A stretch of DNA of 64,000 nucleotides from Actinomycetes bacterium. GTDB lineage: Bacteria; Actinomycetota; Acidimicrobiia; Acidimicrobiales; Acidimicrobilacustridaceae. The position numbers were made by a program, and so were the translations under genes. Shown here piece after piece: positions 21,148 to 37,213 of this stretch (its first letter is position 1; each line of letters starts with the position of its first letter). Below the pieces are notes generated by a model. That model had not been told where the DNA came from. It worked only from the letters and a program-made list of their open reading frames with translations, and made no database searches. The stretch covers positions 1 through 64,000 of the forward strand of contig JAKOVR010000105.1 in NCBI GenBank assembly GCA_029782025.1. Reading direction: 5' to 3'.

Positions 21148-21753
21148 TCAGCTCTCCTTGACCACCGCGTACCAGATGCGCTCGGCCACCTCGACGACGT
21201 CGTCGGCGACGCGGGCGAACCGCCGGTAGAGCTCCCGCCGGCTCATGACCACCCGCAGGTCGTCCTCGGCCAGCAGCGCCGACATGGCGGTGCGGTACAC
21301 CTTCTCGACCTGCCGGGCCTCGTGCACGGCGGCGTCGGCGGCCGCGGTGGCACCGTCGGCGTCACGGCCCAGCGTGGTGACGGCGGCGAGGAGCCGGGCC
21401 GTGGCCGCCTGCAGGAGCGCCGCCATCCGGGCACAGGGCTCGTCGGGCGGCGTGGCCATGACCTCGGCCTCGCCGACGATGTTCTTCGCTCCGTTGAGCA
21501 CGGCGTCGAGGCGGGCCGAGAGCGCATAGAGGTCCTCGGCGTCGATGGGGGTCACGAACGCCGCCCGCAGCGTGGTCCGGAGGCGGCGCACCTCGCCGTC
21601 GGCGTCGTGCTCGAGGTCCCGGACCACCTGCCCCTGGGTGGCGTCGCCGGCCGCCCAGGCCACGAACGCCCGCAGCCCGGCATCGGTGACGGCGGCCTGC
21701 CGTTGGAGGTTGCCGAGCAGGTCCGGGTCGTCGGGCAGGAACCAGCGGCTCAC
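21148..21753 (-). CDS. DUF47/PhoU-like Pit accessory protein
   Basis: This 201-residue all-helical protein belongs to the DUF47 (PhoU-like) group, which usually accompanies Pit phosphate transporters and modulates them. It has LEHDADGEVRRLRTTLRAAFVTPIDAEDLYALSARLDAVLNGAKN, the conserved core of the family with acidic metal-binding residues. GTG at 21753 overlaps the pit stop by 4 bases (GTGA), so translation is coupled. No Pho box is recognised in the shared promoter region upstream of pit. Confidence 0.88.
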   Translation of the reverse strand: MSRWFLPDDPDLLGNLQRQAAVTDAGLRAFVAWAAGDATQGQVVRDLEHDADGEVRRLRTTLRAAFVTPIDAEDLYALSARLDAVLNGAKNIVGEAEVMATPPDEPCARMAALLQAATARLLAAVTTLGRDADGATAAADAAVHEARQVEKVYRTAMSALLAEDDLRVVMSRRELYRRFARVADDVVEVAERIWYAVVKES

Positions 21754-22754
21754 GCCACCACCTTCCAGACCGGGAGGAGCACGCCCGCCATGATCGCGCA
21801 GGCCGGCAGCGTCACCAGCCAGGCCGCCCCCACGTCCCGGACCACCCCCCACCGGATCCGCCGCCGTCGGTCCCGCCCGAAGCCGACACCGACGACGGAG
21901 GAGGCCACCACCTGGGTGGTGCTGATCGGCGCGCCGAGCACCGAGGCCGCGCCGAGGACGAGGGCGGAGCTGGCCGTGCTCGTGAACCCGTCCAGCGGCC
22001 GGATCCGGTAGATCCTCCGGCCGATGGTGGCGACGATGCCCCACCCTCCCACGGCCGTTCCCGCGGTCAGGGCGAGGCCGGCGACGAGACCGACCCACCA
22101 CGGGGGCCCGAGATCCTCGTGGCGTCCCGTCGCCGCCAACAGGACGGCGACGATGCCCACCGTCTTCGCGGCGTCGTTGGCCCCGTGGCTGAGGGCCAGC
22201 ACTCCCGAGGCCGCCCACGATCCGACCCGTACCGGCCCGGCCATGGGCCGGGCGCTGCGCCGCAGCAACCGGCGGGCGATGCGCTCCCCCCAGGCGCCCA
22301 TCCCCATGCCCAGCACCGGGGCGACGACCAGGGCGGCGAGCACGCCGAGCACCCCGACCGGCCGGCCTCCCGAGAACCCGCCCCACCGGACCGCGCCGAC
22401 CCCGGCATCGACGACACCGGCGCCGACCAGCCCGCCCACCAGGGCGTGGCTCGAGCTCGAGGGGGTGCCCCGTCGCCACGTGATCACGTTCCACCCGGTG
22501 GCCGCGGTGAGGGCGGCGCCGACGACGGCGACGGCGCTCGTGACCGGCACCTCGATGATCCCGGCCACGGTGTCGGCCACGGCGGCGCCGAGCACGAGCG
22601 GGCCGGCCAGGTTGCAGATCGACGCCAGCACCACCGCCTGCGCCGGGCGGGCACCCCGCACGGCCACCAGTGCCGCGACGGCGTTGGCGGCGTCGTGGAA
22701 GCCGTTGGTGAAGGCGAAGAGCAGGGCCAGGACCACGGCCGCGGCGAAAGCCAT
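21750..22754 (-). CDS. pit: low-affinity inorganic phosphate transporter (Pit family)
   Basis: This 334-residue protein has about 9-10 membrane helices and both Pit signature repeats, FTNGFHDAANAVA near the N-terminus and SHGANDAAKTVGI near residue 192. These bind phosphate and the coupling ion, so uptake of phosphate (perhaps as a metal-phosphate complex) is expected. It forms a translationally coupled pair with the DUF47 gene and diverges from the universal stress operon. The 100-base intergenic region holds TAGGTC and TAGGGT hexamers that could serve either side. Confidence 0.93.
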   Translation of the reverse strand: MAFAAAVVLALLFAFTNGFHDAANAVAALVAVRGARPAQAVVLASICNLAGPLVLGAAVADTVAGIIEVPVTSAVAVVGAALTAATGWNVITWRRGTPSSSSHALVGGLVGAGVVDAGVGAVRWGGFSGGRPVGVLGVLAALVVAPVLGMGMGAWGERIARRLLRRSARPMAGPVRVGSWAASGVLALSHGANDAAKTVGIVAVLLAATGRHEDLGPPWWVGLVAGLALTAGTAVGGWGIVATIGRRIYRIRPLDGFTSTASSALVLGAASVLGAPISTTQVVASSVVGVGFGRDRRRRIRWGVVRDVGAAWLVTLPACAIMAGVLLPVWKVVA

Positions 22755-22855
22755 GCGGGCAGTCTCCCGGCCCCGTCAAGGGTGACCTAGGACCCTGGAA
22801 AGGGGATCCGAGGCGGCCCTAGGGTGAGGTGAGAGCCCGGAAAGGGCGGAATGAC

Positions 22856-23272
22856 ATGAGGATCGCACTGATCGGGACCGAAGCCCACGCCATCGACCAA
22901 GCCCGAGAGATCCTCCGCCGGGCCGGCCACACCGTCGTCAACTGCTACGACGAGCACCCCCGAGGAACCGGACCGGTCGATCCCGACCAGCACATCGGGT
23001 GCCCTGGCCCGCCCCGGGTCGACGTGATCGTCGCCGTCCGAGCCCACCCGGTCGACCGGGTCACGAACCAGGAGCAACACCTGCTGGTGTGCCCGATGCT
23101 GGCCGGCGCACCGCTCGTGGTGGCGGGCAGCCCGATGCCCAATCCGTTCGGCGACCGTGCAGACTCGCTGGTGTTCGGGCTCGACGGCATCGAGGCGGCC
23201 TGCGCCGAGGTCATCCGACCGCCGACCCGGGTCCTGCTTTCCCCACCCGCCACGACGAGGAGCGAACCATGA
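22856..23272 (+). CDS. hypothetical protein, first gene of stress operon
   Basis: This 138-residue protein is not recognised. It begins MRIALIGTEAHAIDQAREILRRAGH, a Rossmann-like beta-alpha opening, and continues with DVIVAVRAHPVDRVTNQEQHLLVCPM and LVVAGSPMPNPFGDRADSL, alternating strands and helices of a small nucleotide-binding-type fold. ATG at 22856 is chosen because AAAGGGCGGA precedes it. A TAGGGT hexamer about 30 bases upstream could be the -10 box of the whole operon. Its stop overlaps the next start as ATGA. Its conserved-looking LIGTEAH and PMPNPFGD stretches would be good search seeds. Confidence 0.65.
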   Translation: MRIALIGTEAHAIDQAREILRRAGHTVVNCYDEHPRGTGPVDPDQHIGCPGPPRVDVIVAVRAHPVDRVTNQEQHLLVCPMLAGAPLVVAGSPMPNPFGDRADSLVFGLDGIEAACAEVIRPPTRVLLSPPATTRSEP

Positions 23273-23610
23273 GCGATGCATCCATCAACGATCTCACCGC
23301 CCGCATCGAGGCCCTGGAGGCCGAGACCGAACGGCTCCGCGAGCAGCTGGTCCAGGCCCAGATCGACCAGTGGAAGGGCCGGATCGACGACCTCGACGTG
23401 CAGATGCACCTCGGCGCCCTCGACCTCCGCGACAAGCTCCAACCGGTGGTCGACCAGTTCCGCAGCAACGTCGCCGACGCCCGGGCTCGCCTCGGCACGG
23501 CCGCATCCACCGCCGACGACGTCCTCGCCAACCTCCGCAAGGGGTTCGACAAGGCCGTCGACGACATCTCCAAGGCGGTGCGGCAAGCCCGCGAGTCGGT
23601 GGGCTCCTGA
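23269..23610 (+). CDS. small coiled-coil protein
   Basis: This 113-residue protein is almost entirely helical: residues 6-32 form a heptad-rich coiled coil (TARIEALEAETERLREQLVQA), followed by amphipathic helices containing DDVLANLRKGFDKAVDDISKA. It has no membrane segment and no cysteine. The composition is like small stress or nucleoid-organising helical proteins, but no family is assigned. The ATG at 23269 overlaps the upstream stop by 4 bases, and its own stop overlaps the next start by one base (TGATG). Confidence 0.7.
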   Translation: MSDASINDLTARIEALEAETERLREQLVQAQIDQWKGRIDDLDVQMHLGALDLRDKLQPVVDQFRSNVADARARLGTAASTADDVLANLRKGFDKAVDDISKAVRQARESVGS

Positions 23611-24077
23611 TGTCCCGCATCGTCGTCGGCGTCGACGGGTCGGCCCCTGCGCTCGCGGCGCTGCGTTGGGCCGACGACGAGGCGCGGCGACGGCAGGCGA
23701 CGCTGGCCGTCGTCGTGGCCTGGCAGCCGCAGGTGCTGCTCAACCCCTACCCGTACGGCCCCGTCCCGATGCCGGACGACCGGGAGATCGAGGCGGCCGC
23801 ACGCACCGTGGCCGAACGCGCCGTCGAGGAGGCGGGGGTCGTCGGCGATCCCGAGCACGACGTGGTGATCGAGGTGGTCGAGGGTCCGCCCGTCCCCTCC
23901 CTGCTCGCCGCGGCGGCGGGGGCCGATCTCCTGGTGGTCGGATCCCGCGGCCACGGCGCGTTCACGGGCATGCTGCTCGGGTCCGTGAGCCAACACTGTG
24001 CGGGGCACGCGCCGTGTCCCGTCGTGGTGGTCCCGGACCCGGCCCATCACGAGCACCGAGGAGGATCATCGTCATGA
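23610..24077 (+). CDS. universal stress protein, single domain
   Basis: This 155-residue protein is a UspA-type protein: RIVVGVDGSAPALAALRWA at the start and VGSRGHGAFTGMLLGSVS near residue 118, which matches the ATP-binding G-x2-G-x9-G-S pattern exactly. ATP-binding Usp proteins in actinobacteria are tied to dormancy, hypoxia and oxidative stress. Start at 23610 overlaps the coiled-coil gene's stop (TGATG), and its stop overlaps the next gene as ATGA. A GGRSSS-like Ser tail ends the protein. Confidence 0.92.
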   Translation: MSRIVVGVDGSAPALAALRWADDEARRRQATLAVVVAWQPQVLLNPYPYGPVPMPDDREIEAAARTVAERAVEEAGVVGDPEHDVVIEVVEGPPVPSLLAAAAGADLLVVGSRGHGAFTGMLLGSVSQHCAGHAPCPVVVVPDPAHHEHRGGSSS

Positions 24078-24877
24078 CCACGGTCATCGTGCCGCTCGAC
24101 GGCAGCCACTTCGCCGAGTCGGCGCTGCCCACGGCCAGCTGGCTGGCCCGCAAGCTCCGGGCCGACCTGCGCCTCGTCACCACCACCTTCGTCGCCGACG
24201 CCGACGGCATGGAGCGGTACCTGGCCGAGAAGGCCGCGGCGTCGGGCATCGAAGGGGCGCAGGGCGAGATCGTCCGCCCCCACTTCCCGGGCTCGGGCAT
24301 CAGCGAGTACGCCGCCGGCCATCAGGACGCCGTGCTCTGCATGACCACCCACGGGCACAGCGGGGTGGCCGACATCCTCCTCGGCGGCGTCGCCGACGAA
24401 GTGGTGCGATCCGCCGCCGGGCCCGTGGTGCTCGTCGGCCCCCACGCGGCCAAGGGCGAACCGGTGGGCCAGCGCATCATCGCCTGTGTCGACGGCTCGG
24501 CCCCGTCCCAGGCGATCCTGCCCACGGTCTCGACCTGGGCCGACCACCTGTTGCTCCCGATCGATCTGGTCACGGTGGCCGAGCACGACGGGTCGGCCTG
24601 GGACCAGGCCGCGGCCCACGCCGAGCTCACCGCCCTGGCCGCCGGGCTGCGCGCCGACGGCCGCTCGGTCAACGTGACCGTCATCCCGGCCGACGAGGGC
24701 AAGGTGGCCGACCGCCTGCTGGCCCATGCCGAGCGCTACTCGGGCGCCCTGATCGCCATCGCCACCCACGGCCGGGGCGGCCTGCTCTCCAACGCCCTCG
24801 GCTCGGTGGTGACCCACGTGGTGCGCCACAGCACCCGCCCCGTCCTCGTGTGCCGGCCGGCAGGAACGGAGACCTGA
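24074..24877 (+). CDS. tandem-domain universal stress protein
   Basis: This 267-residue protein has two Usp domains (about 1-130 and 135-265), starting TVIVPLDGS and IIACVDGSAPS. Both nucleotide motifs are imperfect: THGHSGVADILLGG and THGRGGLLSNALGS lack the first Gly of the G-x2-G pattern, and the first also lacks the final Ser. ATP binding is therefore less certain than for its upstream neighbour. A GAGGATCATCGTC stretch precedes the ATG, which overlaps the previous stop by 4 bases. Confidence 0.9.
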   Translation: MTTVIVPLDGSHFAESALPTASWLARKLRADLRLVTTTFVADADGMERYLAEKAAASGIEGAQGEIVRPHFPGSGISEYAAGHQDAVLCMTTHGHSGVADILLGGVADEVVRSAAGPVVLVGPHAAKGEPVGQRIIACVDGSAPSQAILPTVSTWADHLLLPIDLVTVAEHDGSAWDQAAAHAELTALAAGLRADGRSVNVTVIPADEGKVADRLLAHAERYSGALIAIATHGRGGLLSNALGSVVTHVVRHSTRPVLVCRPAGTET

Positions 24878-26067
24878 TGGAACGGGCGGCGGACGTCCTG
24901 CTCCCCATCGACGTGGCAGTCGTCGATCCCGACCTGCTCTGGCGGGTCGAGTACATGAACGCGATCCGCCACGTCATGGTGAAGGAGTTCACGGCCCTGC
25001 AGGACGCGGTCGATGCCCTGACCCCGGGGCACCCGTCGGTCGTGGTGATCGGCCCGACGGTCGACGCATCACGCCGTGATCTCGCGCCGGCCGTCCGCGA
25101 GACCCGCCCGGAAGTGGTGTTCCTGGCCGTGGCGGCCGACGGCGAGGACGCGGCGGCGCTCGACAACGGCGCGCTCGACGGCGTGGCCCGGGTCCTCCCG
25201 ACCGAGGTCACCGCCGCCGACCTGGCCGAGGCCGTCCACCAGCTGCTCCCCCGCCGGGCCGCCCCCGCCGCCGTCCCCGCCGCGCCCGTCACGGGCCGGT
25301 CCGCGCCGGTCAACACCGCCACCCGGGCCGCGCCGGTGATGCACCTGCCCGAGAACATGATCCTCGTCACGGCGGCCAAGGGGGGCGAGGGCACGACCAC
25401 GGTGGCGGCCAACCTCGCCGCCGCCCTGGCCGCCCGACCCAACCTCCGGGTCGCCCTCGTCGACGCCGACGGCCGCTTCGGGGACGTCGCCGTGCACCTC
25501 GGCCTCACGCCGGTCCCCTCGGTGCGCGCCTCGCAACTCCCCCTCAGCGAGGAGTTCCTGGACCGCCTGTTCGAGCACCACGAGGCCACGGGGATGCTCG
25601 TGGCCCGGTCACCGCGGGCCACCACGCCCGACACCCGCCCAGGCGCCGTCGTGCTCGACCTGCTGGCCGAGGTGGCGTCGCGAGCCGACGTCGCCGTGGT
25701 CGACGCGCCGCTCCCCCTCGTGCTCGCCACCGACCTACACCGGGCGGCGTCGGTCGTCGTGCTGGTCACGTCGGAGCGGGCGGCGGAACTGAAGAACGCC
25801 ATCGTCGCCACCCGCGAGCTGGCGGCCGCTCCCCGCCTCGTCGTGCTCGTCAACGAGACGCGCCCGACCGATCGCCTGCGCGACCTCAAGGAGCTGTCGT
25901 CGTCGCTCGGCGTGCCGGTGATCGGCCGCGTGCCCTACGACGGCGCCATCGACCGGAGCACGCAGCGCACACCGCCCCGCATCATCGCCGGCTCCCACTC
26001 CAAGCTGGCGAGGGCGGTCACCGCTGCGGCCGAGGACATCGTGCGGCGGGCCCCGTTCATGATGTGA
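24877..26067 (+). CDS. CpaE/TadZ-like ParA-superfamily ATPase
   Basis: This 396-residue protein has an N-terminal receiver-like domain (about 1-125), a Pro/Ala linker and a ParA/MinD-type domain. The P-loop is AAKGGEGTTTVAANLA (Lys168-Gly-Gly-Glu-Gly-Thr-Thr-Thr): the deviant-Walker Lys168 is kept, but the canonical P-loop Lys is Thr, as in CpaE/TadZ proteins that localise Flp pilus machinery. VALVDADGRFGDVAVHLGL and VAVVDAPLPLVL complete the fold. No tad or cpa pilus gene is present; instead it is the last gene of a universal stress operon, starting in a TGATG overlap. Confidence 0.85.
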   Translation: MERAADVLLPIDVAVVDPDLLWRVEYMNAIRHVMVKEFTALQDAVDALTPGHPSVVVIGPTVDASRRDLAPAVRETRPEVVFLAVAADGEDAAALDNGALDGVARVLPTEVTAADLAEAVHQLLPRRAAPAAVPAAPVTGRSAPVNTATRAAPVMHLPENMILVTAAKGGEGTTTVAANLAAALAARPNLRVALVDADGRFGDVAVHLGLTPVPSVRASQLPLSEEFLDRLFEHHEATGMLVARSPRATTPDTRPGAVVLDLLAEVASRADVAVVDAPLPLVLATDLHRAASVVVLVTSERAAELKNAIVATRELAAAPRLVVLVNETRPTDRLRDLKELSSSLGVPVIGRVPYDGAIDRSTQRTPPRIIAGSHSKLARAVTAAAEDIVRRAPFMM

Positions 26068-26082
26068 GGCGCCCGGACGCCG

Positions 26083-26853
26083 CTACCGCCCCGGTGCCCG
26101 GACCACCAGCACCGGCGTGATGCTGCGCTGCAGCACCCCGGTGACGTGGCTGCCGTGCACGAGACGCCCCGCGCCGTGCCGACCGTGCGAGGCCATCACC
26201 GCCATCGCCGTGCCGTCGCGCTCGAGCAGCGCGCCGATGCCGCCGACCACGTCGGTGCTCGTGATGGTGACGGTGTTGACCGCGGGGCTGACGTGGCTGA
26301 GCTCCTCGGCCAGGGCGTCCATGCCGTCGAAGGGACCGCCCTCGCTGATGTACAGCACCGTGCATGGCAGGTCGAGGGCGCGCGCCCACGCCGCCGCGAG
26401 GTCGACGGCAGCCCGGTCGCGATCGGAACCGTCGACGCAGACGACCAGGCGCCGTGCCGCGCCGGGCGCCACGCGCTGGCACCGGGGCCCGACCAGGACC
26501 ATCGGGACGTCGACCCTCGAGAGCAGCGTCTCGGTCACGCTCCCCCGTGCCAGCCGGCTGGCGCCGTCCCGGGCATGGGTGGCCATGACGAGGATCGAGT
26601 CGGGACGCACGAAGACGGCCTGCTCGATGGCACCGGCCGGGTCGGTCATTCCGTCGAGGCGCACATACGTGTGCTCGTTGCTGAGCTCCTGGGCCCGGCC
26701 CTTCAGCGCCTCCAGCGTTCCCTTGCCCAGGGTGTCGGTGCTGGTGACGACCACCAGCTGGGAGCCGAACACGACGCACAGCTCCACGGCCAGCTGCTGG
26801 GCCAGCGACGACGCCGTCGAGCCGTCATTCGGGGCGATGACGTACCGGTACAC
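26083..26853 (-). CDS. tandem-domain universal stress protein
   Basis: This 256-residue protein has two Usp-like domains, YVIAPNDGSTASS and LVVCVDGSDRDRAAVDLA, with motif regions ATHARDGASRLARGS and ASHGRHGAGRLVHGS near the domain ends. The second fits G-x2-G-x9 only loosely. GTG at 26853 is preceded by GGAGG with 6-base spacing. It converges on the stress operon, ending 16 bases from the CpaE-like gene, and lies directly downstream of the IF-2B-like gene. The two genes may be co-transcribed. Confidence 0.9.
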   Translation of the reverse strand: MYRYVIAPNDGSTASSLAQQLAVELCVVFGSQLVVVTSTDTLGKGTLEALKGRAQELSNEHTYVRLDGMTDPAGAIEQAVFVRPDSILVMATHARDGASRLARGSVTETLLSRVDVPMVLVGPRCQRVAPGAARRLVVCVDGSDRDRAAVDLAAAWARALDLPCTVLYISEGGPFDGMDALAEELSHVSPAVNTVTITSTDVVGGIGALLERDGTAMAVMASHGRHGAGRLVHGSHVTGVLQRSITPVLVVRAPGR

Positions 26854-26880: not shown

Positions 26881-27744
26881 TCACAGGACCAGGCCCCGGT
26901 ACAGCTCCGGGCACTCCGGGCAGGGCGAGACCCGGTGGGCGACCTCCACGGCGACGAGCCCGGTCGGGCCCGCCACCTGGTCGACCAGGGTCAGCGGGAG
27001 CGCCTCGAGCTCGCCGTGCCACGGGTCGGCACGACGGTAGGGGGCCGAGAGGCCGTCCCACATGCGGGGACCGAACTGCCGGCCGACCCCACCGACCAAC
27101 CAGACGGGCACGCCGAAGGCCCGGCCGCACGCCGCGGCCGCGCCGCCGCCGAGCGGCACGAGGGCGTGCGTCGGCCCGATGGCTCGGGCTTCGACCAGCA
27201 CGGCCGCCGCGGCCTGCACGGCGGGCGCCAGCCCCGAGGGATCGAGCGTCTCGGCGCCGCCCTCGGCCAGCACCCGGGCCACCGACCGCGGCGCGTCGCC
27301 GTCGTCCTCCCACCACGCCGGGCGCAGGCGCGAACCGGTGGCGGCGCCCCGCCCGGTCGCCGACCCGATCGCCAGCACGGCCACGTCGGGCCGCCGCGCC
27401 AGGCCGGCGCCCAGCTCGCCGTCGCCCGACCCCGTGGGCCCGACGGCCACGACCCTGCCCTCGGGCAGGGCGTCGGCCAGCAGGCGGGGGGTGGGGTCGT
27501 CCTGCACCTCGGCGGCGGCGGCCCACAGCTCGTCGTAGGGATCGAGCGCCGACACGGCCCGGGCGACCAGCCACACGAGCGGCCCGCAGCCGGGCTGGCG
27601 GGCCAGGACGCGCTGGCAGGCGGTGAGGAACCCCTGCGGCTCGTCGGCGAACGAGGCGAGGGCGCCGGCCGCCTCCTGCACGAGGGGTCGGGGCGGGAGC
27701 GACCCGGACCGGGCCAGGAATCGGAGCCGCTCGATCGGGTGCAT
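26881..27744 (-). CDS. hypothetical protein, IF-2B/ISOCOT-like
   Basis: This 287-residue protein has a helical N-terminal half and a C-terminal half resembling the IF-2B/ISOCOT fold: AAAAVLVEARAIGPTHALVPLGGGAAAACGRAFGVPVWLVGGVGR follows the family's 'location, no-name, neighbour' pattern of strand-GG-helix-VPVW. Such proteins include methylthioribose-1-phosphate isomerase and ribose-1,5-bisphosphate isomerase, but the catalytic Cys and Asp are not evident. A C-terminal CPECPELYRGL could bind metal. ATG at 27744 is preferred because TAGCGT ends 7 bases upstream; GTG at 27753 is also possible. Function is not assigned. Confidence 0.6.
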   Translation of the reverse strand: MHPIERLRFLARSGSLPPRPLVQEAAGALASFADEPQGFLTACQRVLARQPGCGPLVWLVARAVSALDPYDELWAAAAEVQDDPTPRLLADALPEGRVVAVGPTGSGDGELGAGLARRPDVAVLAIGSATGRGAATGSRLRPAWWEDDGDAPRSVARVLAEGGAETLDPSGLAPAVQAAAAVLVEARAIGPTHALVPLGGGAAAACGRAFGVPVWLVGGVGRQFGPRMWDGLSAPYRRADPWHGELEALPLTLVDQVAGPTGLVAVEVAHRVSPCPECPELYRGLVL

Positions 27745-27778
27745 CATCGGCACGCTACCGCCGCGCCCGCCGCGGGGC

Positions 27779-34658: not shown

Positions 34659-35930
34659 TCAGCGCCCCAACCGCTCGAAGCGACCCCCGAGGATCTCGTC
34701 GGTGGGGCCGCCCAACCAGTCGAGCGCGGTGGCGTAGACCGACCGGGTGTCGAGCACCACCGGGAGGTCGCCGTCGTCGAGGTGGTCGAGGTCGTACCCG
34801 CCGGTCACCGCACCGCCGGGCAGGGCCCCGCCCGCCGGGCCGACCAACAGCTCGACCCCGCCCTTGCCGTGGTCGGTGCCGCCGCCGTTCTCGGCCACCC
34901 GGCGCCCGAACTCGCTCGTCGTCATCAAGAGCACCCGGTCCCCGCGGCCCTGCCGGTCGATCTCGGCCACGAAGTCGGCCACGCCCTTCCCGATGTCGGT
35001 CAGGAGCGCGGCGTGCCGGCGCTCCTGGTCGCTGTGGGTGTCGAACCCGTCGGCGGCGACGACCACCACCCGGGTCCCCACGTCGAGGTCGATCAGCCGG
35101 GCGGCCACACCGAGCAGGGCGGCCGCGCCACCACCAGCATCGCCGCCGTCCTTGTCCCGAGCGGCGGCCAGGGCCGGGGCGAGGGTGTCCACCGCATCGA
35201 GCGTGCGGGGCAGGGCGCTCTGGGCCGCGGCCACCAGGTCCACGCCGCTGGCCGGCACCGCGGTCGCCCGGAACGCCGCCGCCAGCTGGGCCGCGTCGGC
35301 CCCCCGGGGAGCACGGAGCGAGAACGAGGCCGGGTCGAGGATCACCGTCGACTGGGCCCGGGCCCCGGCCAGCATCGGCGCGTTGGCCCCGAGGGCCACC
35401 GCCGTGAGGGGGTTGCCCGGATCGGCGGCCTCGTCCAGCCACCGGCCCAACCAGCCCGTGGTCCGGGTGCGGCCGGGCTGGGCCGACCACCACGTGTCGA
35501 GGGCGGCGAAGTGCGACCGGCTCTGCCCCTCGAACCCCACCCCGGCGACGGCGGCGAGGCGCCGGGCCGCCCACAGGGGCGCCAGCGGGGCCAGCTCGGC
35601 CGCCAACCCGAAGGCGTCGGCCCCGGGGAGGGGCACCACCCGGTCGTCCTTGCGCCCGAGCTCCGGGCGGGCGTCGTGGTAGCGACCGGCGGTGACCGGG
35701 ACGAGGGTGTCGAGGGCGTCGTTGCCACCGTTGAGGGCGAGGACCACCAGGATGGTCCGGCTCGGGGCGGTCGTCCCCGCCGGCCCTCCCGCCGTGTCGG
35801 TGCCCGGGGCGCGGCTGGCGAGGGCGTCATCGAGGTGCTCGGCCACCCGACCCTGCCAGGCGGCCAGGCCGGTGACGGCGGCGCCGGCGGCGACGGTGCC
35901 GCCGATCAGGAAGCCTCGACGGGTGACCAT
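34659..35930 (-). CDS. DUF1501 secreted protein (Tat signal)
   Basis: This 423-residue protein has a Tat signal (TRRGFLIGGTVAAGAAVTGLAA) and belongs to DUF1501, an alkaline-phosphatase-superfamily-like fold. Visible conserved stretches are VLALNGGNDALDTLVP, HFAALDTWWS, and STEFGRRVAENGGGTDHGKGG, the last containing likely metal ligands. Function is unknown, but the partner DUF1800 is nearly always adjacent. ATG at 35930 overlaps the DUF1800 stop as TGATG; a GTG at 35933 would give one more residue. Confidence 0.9.
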   Translation of the reverse strand: MVTRRGFLIGGTVAAGAAVTGLAAWQGRVAEHLDDALASRAPGTDTAGGPAGTTAPSRTILVVLALNGGNDALDTLVPVTAGRYHDARPELGRKDDRVVPLPGADAFGLAAELAPLAPLWAARRLAAVAGVGFEGQSRSHFAALDTWWSAQPGRTRTTGWLGRWLDEAADPGNPLTAVALGANAPMLAGARAQSTVILDPASFSLRAPRGADAAQLAAAFRATAVPASGVDLVAAAQSALPRTLDAVDTLAPALAAARDKDGGDAGGGAAALLGVAARLIDLDVGTRVVVVAADGFDTHSDQERRHAALLTDIGKGVADFVAEIDRQGRGDRVLLMTTSEFGRRVAENGGGTDHGKGGVELLVGPAGGALPGGAVTGGYDLDHLDDGDLPVVLDTRSVYATALDWLGGPTDEILGGRFERLGR

Positions 35931-37213
35931 CACGCCACCACCACGTCGGGCGCGGCCATGGCCACGGTGGCGGCGACCCGGGCCGACGACCGGCCGGCGG
36001 CGATGCCCTCGAGCGCCGCCACCGTCCCCGGGGCGAACCCCTCGGGCCGCCCGACGGCCGACGCCAGCGCGGCCCAGTCACGCCGTGCGGCCGCGGCCAC
36101 GACCGGTCCGTCGCCGGCGAACCCGGCCACACCGCCGGCCAGGGTGGCGCGGGCGAGGGTGGTGGCCGAGGTGAGCCACGCCGTGCCGCCGGGCCAGCCG
36201 GCCACGTTCGGGGCGTCCATGGGCACCTGGCCGGCGGCGATGAGCTGATCGGCCGCCGGTCCCACGACCCGCGCCATGTCGAGGCCGTTGGCCCGGACCA
36301 TCGCCACGAACCACGGCAACGGCGCCCACACCATCGGGGTGGACGCCCCGTCGAGCCCGGCCTCCAGGATGCGCCGCAGGAGCGGGGCCACGGCCAGGCC
36401 GTCATCGCGGAACTGCCCAGCGAGGCGAGCGACCAGGCCGGCGTCGACGTCGGGGCCGAGGATCGCCCGGCAGAGCTTGCCGGCGATGAAGGGGGCACAG
36501 GCCTCGTGGGCGGTGACCGCCCGCACGACGCCGTCGAGGTCGTGGACACCGTCCACCCCGAGGTACTGGTGGGGCGTGTCGTCGTGCTCCCGGGCGACGA
36601 AGCGTGCGGTGCCGGTCTCCCGGTCGATGCGCCACCCGCTCAAGGCCTCGGCGCCGGCCCGCACGTCGGCCTCGGTGTAGTGACCGATGCCGAGGGTGAA
36701 CAGCTCGAGCAGCTCCCGCCCGTAGTTCTCATTGATCCGGCCCTTCCGGTTCGTGCGACCGTCGAGGTAGATGAGCATGGCCGGGTCGATGGTCACGGCT
36801 TTCACCAGCGGGGCCAGCTGGCCCTGGCCGAGGCGGCCGAGGAGGCGGAGCTGCTCGGCCATGAGCGCCGGCACCTTGACCACCCGCAGGGTGGACACGA
36901 AGTGGCCGTGCCAAAACCAGCGCACCCACTCGTCGAGCGGACGGGGCGTGGTGGCCATGTGGACGATCCAGGCCCCGACAAAGGCGCGGGCCCGCTGGCG
37001 GCCGGCCTGGCCGTCGAGGTCCCCGGCGAGGTCCATGCCCGCCCACGGATCGGGGGCGGCGGGCACCCCGTGCCCGTCGGGGTCCAGGAGCTCGTCGAGG
37101 GCCCGGTCCACGCCCTTGGCCGCCAGCTCGTCGAGCTGCCCCGGGGCCAGGCCGAACGCCGCCCGACGGTACAGCCAGGCGATGCGGGAGCGGTCGGTGG
37201 CCGGCGAGGACAT
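35930..37213 (-). CDS. DUF1800 protein
   Basis: This 427-residue protein is a DUF1800 protein: an N-terminal YRRAAFGLAPGQLDELAAKG, WFWHGHFVST, the hallmark NENYGRELLELFTLGIGHYTEADV and AEALSGWRID. There is no clear signal peptide, in contrast to the exported DUF1501 partner. The two form a coupled pair (TGATG overlap), a combination widespread in Actinobacteria and Planctomycetes with no known activity. It starts at the ATG at 37213 with GATACT 6-7 bases upstream. Confidence 0.9.
   Translation of the reverse strand: MSSPATDRSRIAWLYRRAAFGLAPGQLDELAAKGVDRALDELLDPDGHGVPAAPDPWAGMDLAGDLDGQAGRQRARAFVGAWIVHMATTPRPLDEWVRWFWHGHFVSTLRVVKVPALMAEQLRLLGRLGQGQLAPLVKAVTIDPAMLIYLDGRTNRKGRINENYGRELLELFTLGIGHYTEADVRAGAEALSGWRIDRETGTARFVAREHDDTPHQYLGVDGVHDLDGVVRAVTAHEACAPFIAGKLCRAILGPDVDAGLVARLAGQFRDDGLAVAPLLRRILEAGLDGASTPMVWAPLPWFVAMVRANGLDMARVVGPAADQLIAAGQVPMDAPNVAGWPGGTAWLTSATTLARATLAGGVAGFAGDGPVVAAAARRDWAALASAVGRPEGFAPGTVAALEGIAAGRSSARVAATVAMAAPDVVVA

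Follow-up and report, generated by a model that had tools for sequence, protein, structure and literature searches.

The five-gene operon at positions 22856–26067 of the window (the whole 64,000-nucleotide stretch that was analysed) is, on computational evidence, probably part of a DosR-type hypoxia/dormancy regulon, a judgement that extends to the full proposed chain, including an ATPase that would act outside any pilus. A DosR-type box in front of the operon, DosR and DosS orthologues in the source genome, and boxes before gene-1 homologues and before the coiled coil/Usp pair in other genomes together make membership in the DosR regulon the most likely explanation. The source genome, from an uncultured acidimicrobial bacterium, is a draft of 219 contigs and the only genome listed for its genus.

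Arrangement of the Operon

Five genes on the plus strand overlap at all four junctions, by 4 or 1 nt each: ORF1 (gene 1; 22856–23272, 138 aa), a coiled-coil protein (gene 2; 23269–23610, 113 aa), UspA (gene 3; 23610–24077, 155 aa; PF00582, 1.3e-31), the tandem universal stress protein UspB (gene 4; 24074–24877, 267 aa; two stretches of PF00582) and a CpaE-like ATPase (gene 5; 24877–26067, 396 aa; CbiA, 2.5e-11). The ORF1/coiled coil and UspA/UspB junctions read ATGA (23269–23272 and 24074–24077, respectively), and the coiled coil/UspA and UspB/ATPase junctions read TGATG (23608–23612 and 24875–24879). A codon-usage gene finder recovered exactly these five genes, in agreement with an earlier note on this DNA, which had described overlaps at every junction and whose coordinates were exact. 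The neighbours described there are likewise borne out by domain models: a divergent DUF47 and Pit phosphate transporter pair (21148–22754, minus strand; PF01384, 2.5e-73; DUF47/PhoU_div PF01865, 1.1e-7) and a convergent tandem Usp, UspC (26083–26853, minus strand; PF00582). The gene downstream of UspC (26881–27747, minus strand) has no Pfam match at E 1 and no NCBIfam match at 0.1. A search for sigma-70 promoters and terminators, uninformative here, gave no match.

The coiled-coil protein belongs to the sll1863 stress family (NCBIfam NF052504; 49.8 bits, cut-off 35), and all three Usp proteins lie well above the PF00582 gathering cut-off of 24 bits (UspA, 110.5; UspB, 93.4; UspC, 78.2). UspA is a single universal stress domain with an intact G-2x-G-9x-G(S/T) ATP motif, GSRGHGAFTGMLLGS; in UspB, a motif scan finds the ATP motifs altered in both halves.

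A Candidate DosR Box Upstream of ORF1

A predicted DosR-type box, GGTGACCTAGGACCCT, lies on the plus strand at 22781–22796, its centre 67 bp upstream of the ORF1 start and 35 bp from that of pit, within the 101-bp intergenic region common to the operon and the divergent Pit/DUF47 genes, and marks the operon as a predicted member of the DosR/DevR regulon. The matrix used for scoring was built from DosS-adjacent intergenic sites of other genomes within the order, together with the G005 locus, and yields the consensus CGGGACCTTCGGCCCT. At 15.4 bits it ranks first of all positions in the 64-kb window, and column-shuffled matrices placed their best match in the ORF1/Pit intergenic region in 4 of 2000 cases. 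Several positions of the box differ from the consensus, and most training sites score higher; random 460-bp stretches, among which real boxes are included, have a 99% quantile of 15.9 bits. Only the trained matrix separates the site, since the plain DNA pattern of the box with 3 mismatches gave a match count no better than chance, and a hand-weighted score used earlier, which the trained matrix replaced, had ranked other window sites above it. The second-best box-like site in the window (36782–36797; 15.1 bits) falls within a gene called at 35930–37213.

Across the source genome, GKGACBTWSGDCCCT has 10 exact matches, the box being one of them. A related pattern, with letters picked so as to admit the window site, has 31 matches compared with 12 for a reversed control; 26 of the 30 sites inspected are intergenic, and the sites precede PNPOx-like, PPDK-like and other genes.

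DosR and DosS Orthologues in the Source Genome

As judged by sequence comparison, the genome encodes close orthologues of both DosR and DosS. The best PDB match of its response regulator is M. tuberculosis DevR (3c3w, 6.7e-79), followed by VraR (8.7e-43), and the recognition helix, EKTVKNYVS, is identical in the DosR-like regulator and DevR. The GAF domain of the kinase matches DevS (4.7e-48), its best matches being DevS and relatives, and it conserves the histidine of the HPPM motif, which we take to be the heme ligand H149. The kinase gene lies on contig C44 beside the DosR-like regulator, a PNPOx-like gene, a P-type ATPase and an ORF1 paralogue, so that a member of the ORF1 family is found at the genome's own dosRS locus. 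In G005, an ORF1–coiled coil pair adjoins a DosR-like regulator and a GAF kinase, an arrangement that led to the idea of a DosR regulon for the operon.

Boxes at Homologous Loci

The search for ORF1 and the coiled coil covered an order-wide sample of genomes. At ORF1 loci without a type IV pilus link, the top matrix match lies within 170 bp upstream in all nine cases (window included, the two G005 loci that fed the matrix excluded; 0.5 expected), compared with one of six pilus-type loci; the homologues were split in this way once the boxes had been seen, and sequence and neighbourhood largely agree. Coiled-coil homologues taken alone had a box as the top upstream match in two of the seven loci tested, which is not significant. 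In two genomes (G216, G217) a UspB homologue comes directly after the coiled coil and a box precedes the pair; in two more (G127, G227) the coiled coil and UspB homologues are close, with a divergent gene inserted between them and boxes present. In G095, a UspB homologue flanks a PNPOx gene and a DosR-like gene, with a box of 20.6 bits. A weaker box (13.1 bits; L071 4052–4067) lies 73 bp upstream of the ATPase's convergent tandem Usp neighbour in G222. Upstream of the relatives' solo ATPases no box was found, so that DosR control of the ATPase is predicted from the source genome only.

The ATPase Belongs to a Solo CpaE/Ssd-like Group

The window ATPase is a member of the ParA/MinD superfamily whose P-loop, KGGEGTTT, lacks the Walker A lysine, and its N-terminus is predicted from the sequence to be a pseudo-receiver-like region. 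The earlier note had noticed no Flp pilus, which holds for the neighbourhood of the operon, where the ATPase has neither CpaF nor CpaB beside it; for the genome as a whole it does not hold, since contig C207 carries a tad locus that has a CpaE, a CpaF and a CpaB of its own. The window protein scores 40 bits on TIGR03815, the Ssd model, far below the cut-off of 154.45, and the genome's own tad CpaE, at 78.8 bits, is likewise below it.

The search for the ATPase covered 37 genomes of the family, and retrieved stretches showed which genes surround its solo relatives. Tad-linked copies that could be read keep KGGxGKS, whereas solo copies lack the P-loop lysine; two tad-linked loci had no readable gene, and one solo copy missed by the motif pattern (L058) also lacks the lysine in the alignment. 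In the tree, solo and tad-linked CpaE proteins fall on opposite sides of a branch with 100/100 support, and the window ATPase joins the G222 copy (95/88). The end branches of the window protein and most solo copies are long (about 1.9–2.5, versus <0.8 for tad CpaE), and the inner placements of the solo copies are unsure for this reason, as the program warned. In a wider contig scan, whose output may omit near records, the four best listed matches all came from Acidimicrobiia assemblies and the others were far weaker. Together, locus, P-loop and tree rule out an Flp-pilus CpaE, in support of the earlier placement of the ATPase outside pilus function; ATPases in the tad loci of relatives, which the note would have counted against its five-gene unit, do exist, but they form a different group and do not refute it. 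The window ATPase is a rapidly changing relative of the ATPases that position pili and cell division.

Proposed Regulation and Alternatives

In the proposed chain, low oxygen, or a redox signal related to it, would be sensed by the heme-GAF kinase DosS, which would phosphorylate DosR. DosR would then bind the box at 22781–22796 and activate the five genes together as a single transcript, and perhaps the divergent Pit genes too. ORF1, the Usp proteins and the sll1863-family coiled coil would serve as dormancy or redox stress proteins. The ATPase, a solo CpaE/Ssd-like protein and not a pilus part, would most likely act in spatial or division control, helping division to stop as oxygen falls. The gene layout, the position and score of the box, the DosR/DosS similarity, the boxed homologues, the ATPase grouping and the P-loop loss are direct results of the analysis, whereas DosR binding, induction and all protein functions after transcription are inferred. 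Overexpression of Ssd, the actinobacterial CpaE homologue, blocks septation in M. tuberculosis and induces the dosR regulon (PMC3095998), which makes a division role the leading idea for the window ATPase; a part in division arrest is suggested by this analogy. A bolder version, in which DosR directly turns on a CpaE relative free of the P-loop lysine to halt or reposition division in dormancy, along with ORF1 as a new cysteine-bearing, receiver-like member of the regulon and possible redox sensor, is doubtful as a whole, and a redox role for ORF1 is a guess.

A general stress or phosphate-responsive operon, under another regulator common to the divergent Pit genes and with the box a chance match, is an unlikely reading. 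The intergenic region is indeed shared with Pit/DUF47, and Synechocystis sll1863 responds to many stresses (PMC8670252, PMC6789579), but the best match in the window falls at this very site, which shuffled matrices rarely reproduce, and homologues of ORF1 and of the coiled coil–UspB pair lie behind boxes in other genomes. The earlier note had instead suggested one stress-signalling complex. Its stress component is supported, as a co-transcribed stress operon with a DosR-type box, DosR/DosS and boxed homologues; the five-gene functional unit, tied by the note itself to conserved gene order, is refuted, since the order is absent from every solo-ATPase locus read in the family. The operon unites pairs that are seen apart elsewhere (gene 1–coiled coil, coiled coil–tandem Usp, and ATPase with convergent tandem Usp). 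The closest relative of the ATPase, the G222 copy, has the convergent tandem Usp as its one common feature (L071 2004–3987) and is the only solo ATPase in the family beside a Usp.

A single physical complex of the Usp proteins, the coiled coil, ORF1 and the ATPase, with the ATPase as scaffold or switch, is thus unsupported and very improbable: the overlapping junctions suggest coupled translation, and a tandem Usp stands beside the ATPase in G222 too, but the solo-ATPase loci read elsewhere in the family lack this order, and G095 has its homologues of gene 1, the coiled coil, the ATPase and the Usp proteins scattered over separate places. Hardly any weight, and marginally less again, goes to a decaying Flp-pilus CpaE copy that rides on the operon without function. 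Loss of the P-loop lysine and the long end branches would fit such decay, but eight solo copies in the family remain open, all on one side of the 100/100 branch, and K168, D198 and the N-terminal motif are kept in the seven that were aligned.

Comparison with Known Systems

The predicted system resembles the M. tuberculosis DosR/DevR and S. coelicolor OsdR regulons (PMC5069765) in its DosR, heme-GAF DosS relatives, palindromic box and Usp genes, as well as in the PNPOx-like and PPDK-like genes nearby or behind boxes. It differs in the box consensus given above, in carrying the ORF1 family and, in the source genome, in the predicted addition of a CpaE/Ssd-like gene. With Ssd (Rv3660c; TIGR03815) the ATPase shares the ParA/MinD superfamily, and differs in scoring far below the model, in lying outside a tad locus and in its lost lysine. 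Furthermore, Ssd acts upstream of the dosR regulon, its levels altering septation and that regulon (PMC3095998), whereas the window ATPase is placed, by prediction, under DosR. CpaE/TadZ proteins of Tad (Flp) loci have the same N-terminal receiver-like region and ParA/MinD-type domain, and differ in the P-loop lysine and the tad neighbours, both of which the solo copies lack. The coiled coil scores over the curated cut-off of the sll1863 family; its cyanobacterial representative is linked to general and salt stress, whereas the window member is predicted to be under DosR.

Among the papers searched, none names both DosR and Acidimicrobi-. If the proposal is true, the DosR system reaches this acidimicrobial group with a readable box, ORF1 is a marker gene family that no Pfam model covers, and oxygen sensing may be linked directly to division control, a connection for which mycobacterial work so far suggests the reverse direction.

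The ORF1 Family

ORF1 is a small receiver-like alpha/beta protein with conserved cysteines, of which C30, C49 and C79 are invariant in 13 sequences. Sequence searches of Pfam, NCBIfam and the PDB gave no match for it. The AlphaFold2 model (pLDDT 79, pTM 0.72) has mostly response-regulator receivers as its nearest folds in Foldseek, with a best E of 4.8e-3 and none at E ≤ 0.001. Beyond the order, no member was found in a phylum sample among the 9 candidates scored per genome. Elsewhere, one open frame (L037 11754–12641, minus strand) joins an ORF1-like domain to a stretch resembling the PNPOx-like proteins of DosR loci, and no NCBIfam family was reported for its whole length. At L018, a type IV pilus locus, a DosR-type box of 23.0 bits is placed close to the end of an ORF1 homologue, ~414 bp inside from its start (compare L042 5000–6787), and ahead of a pilB-like gene, so that DosR may control this pilus operon as well.
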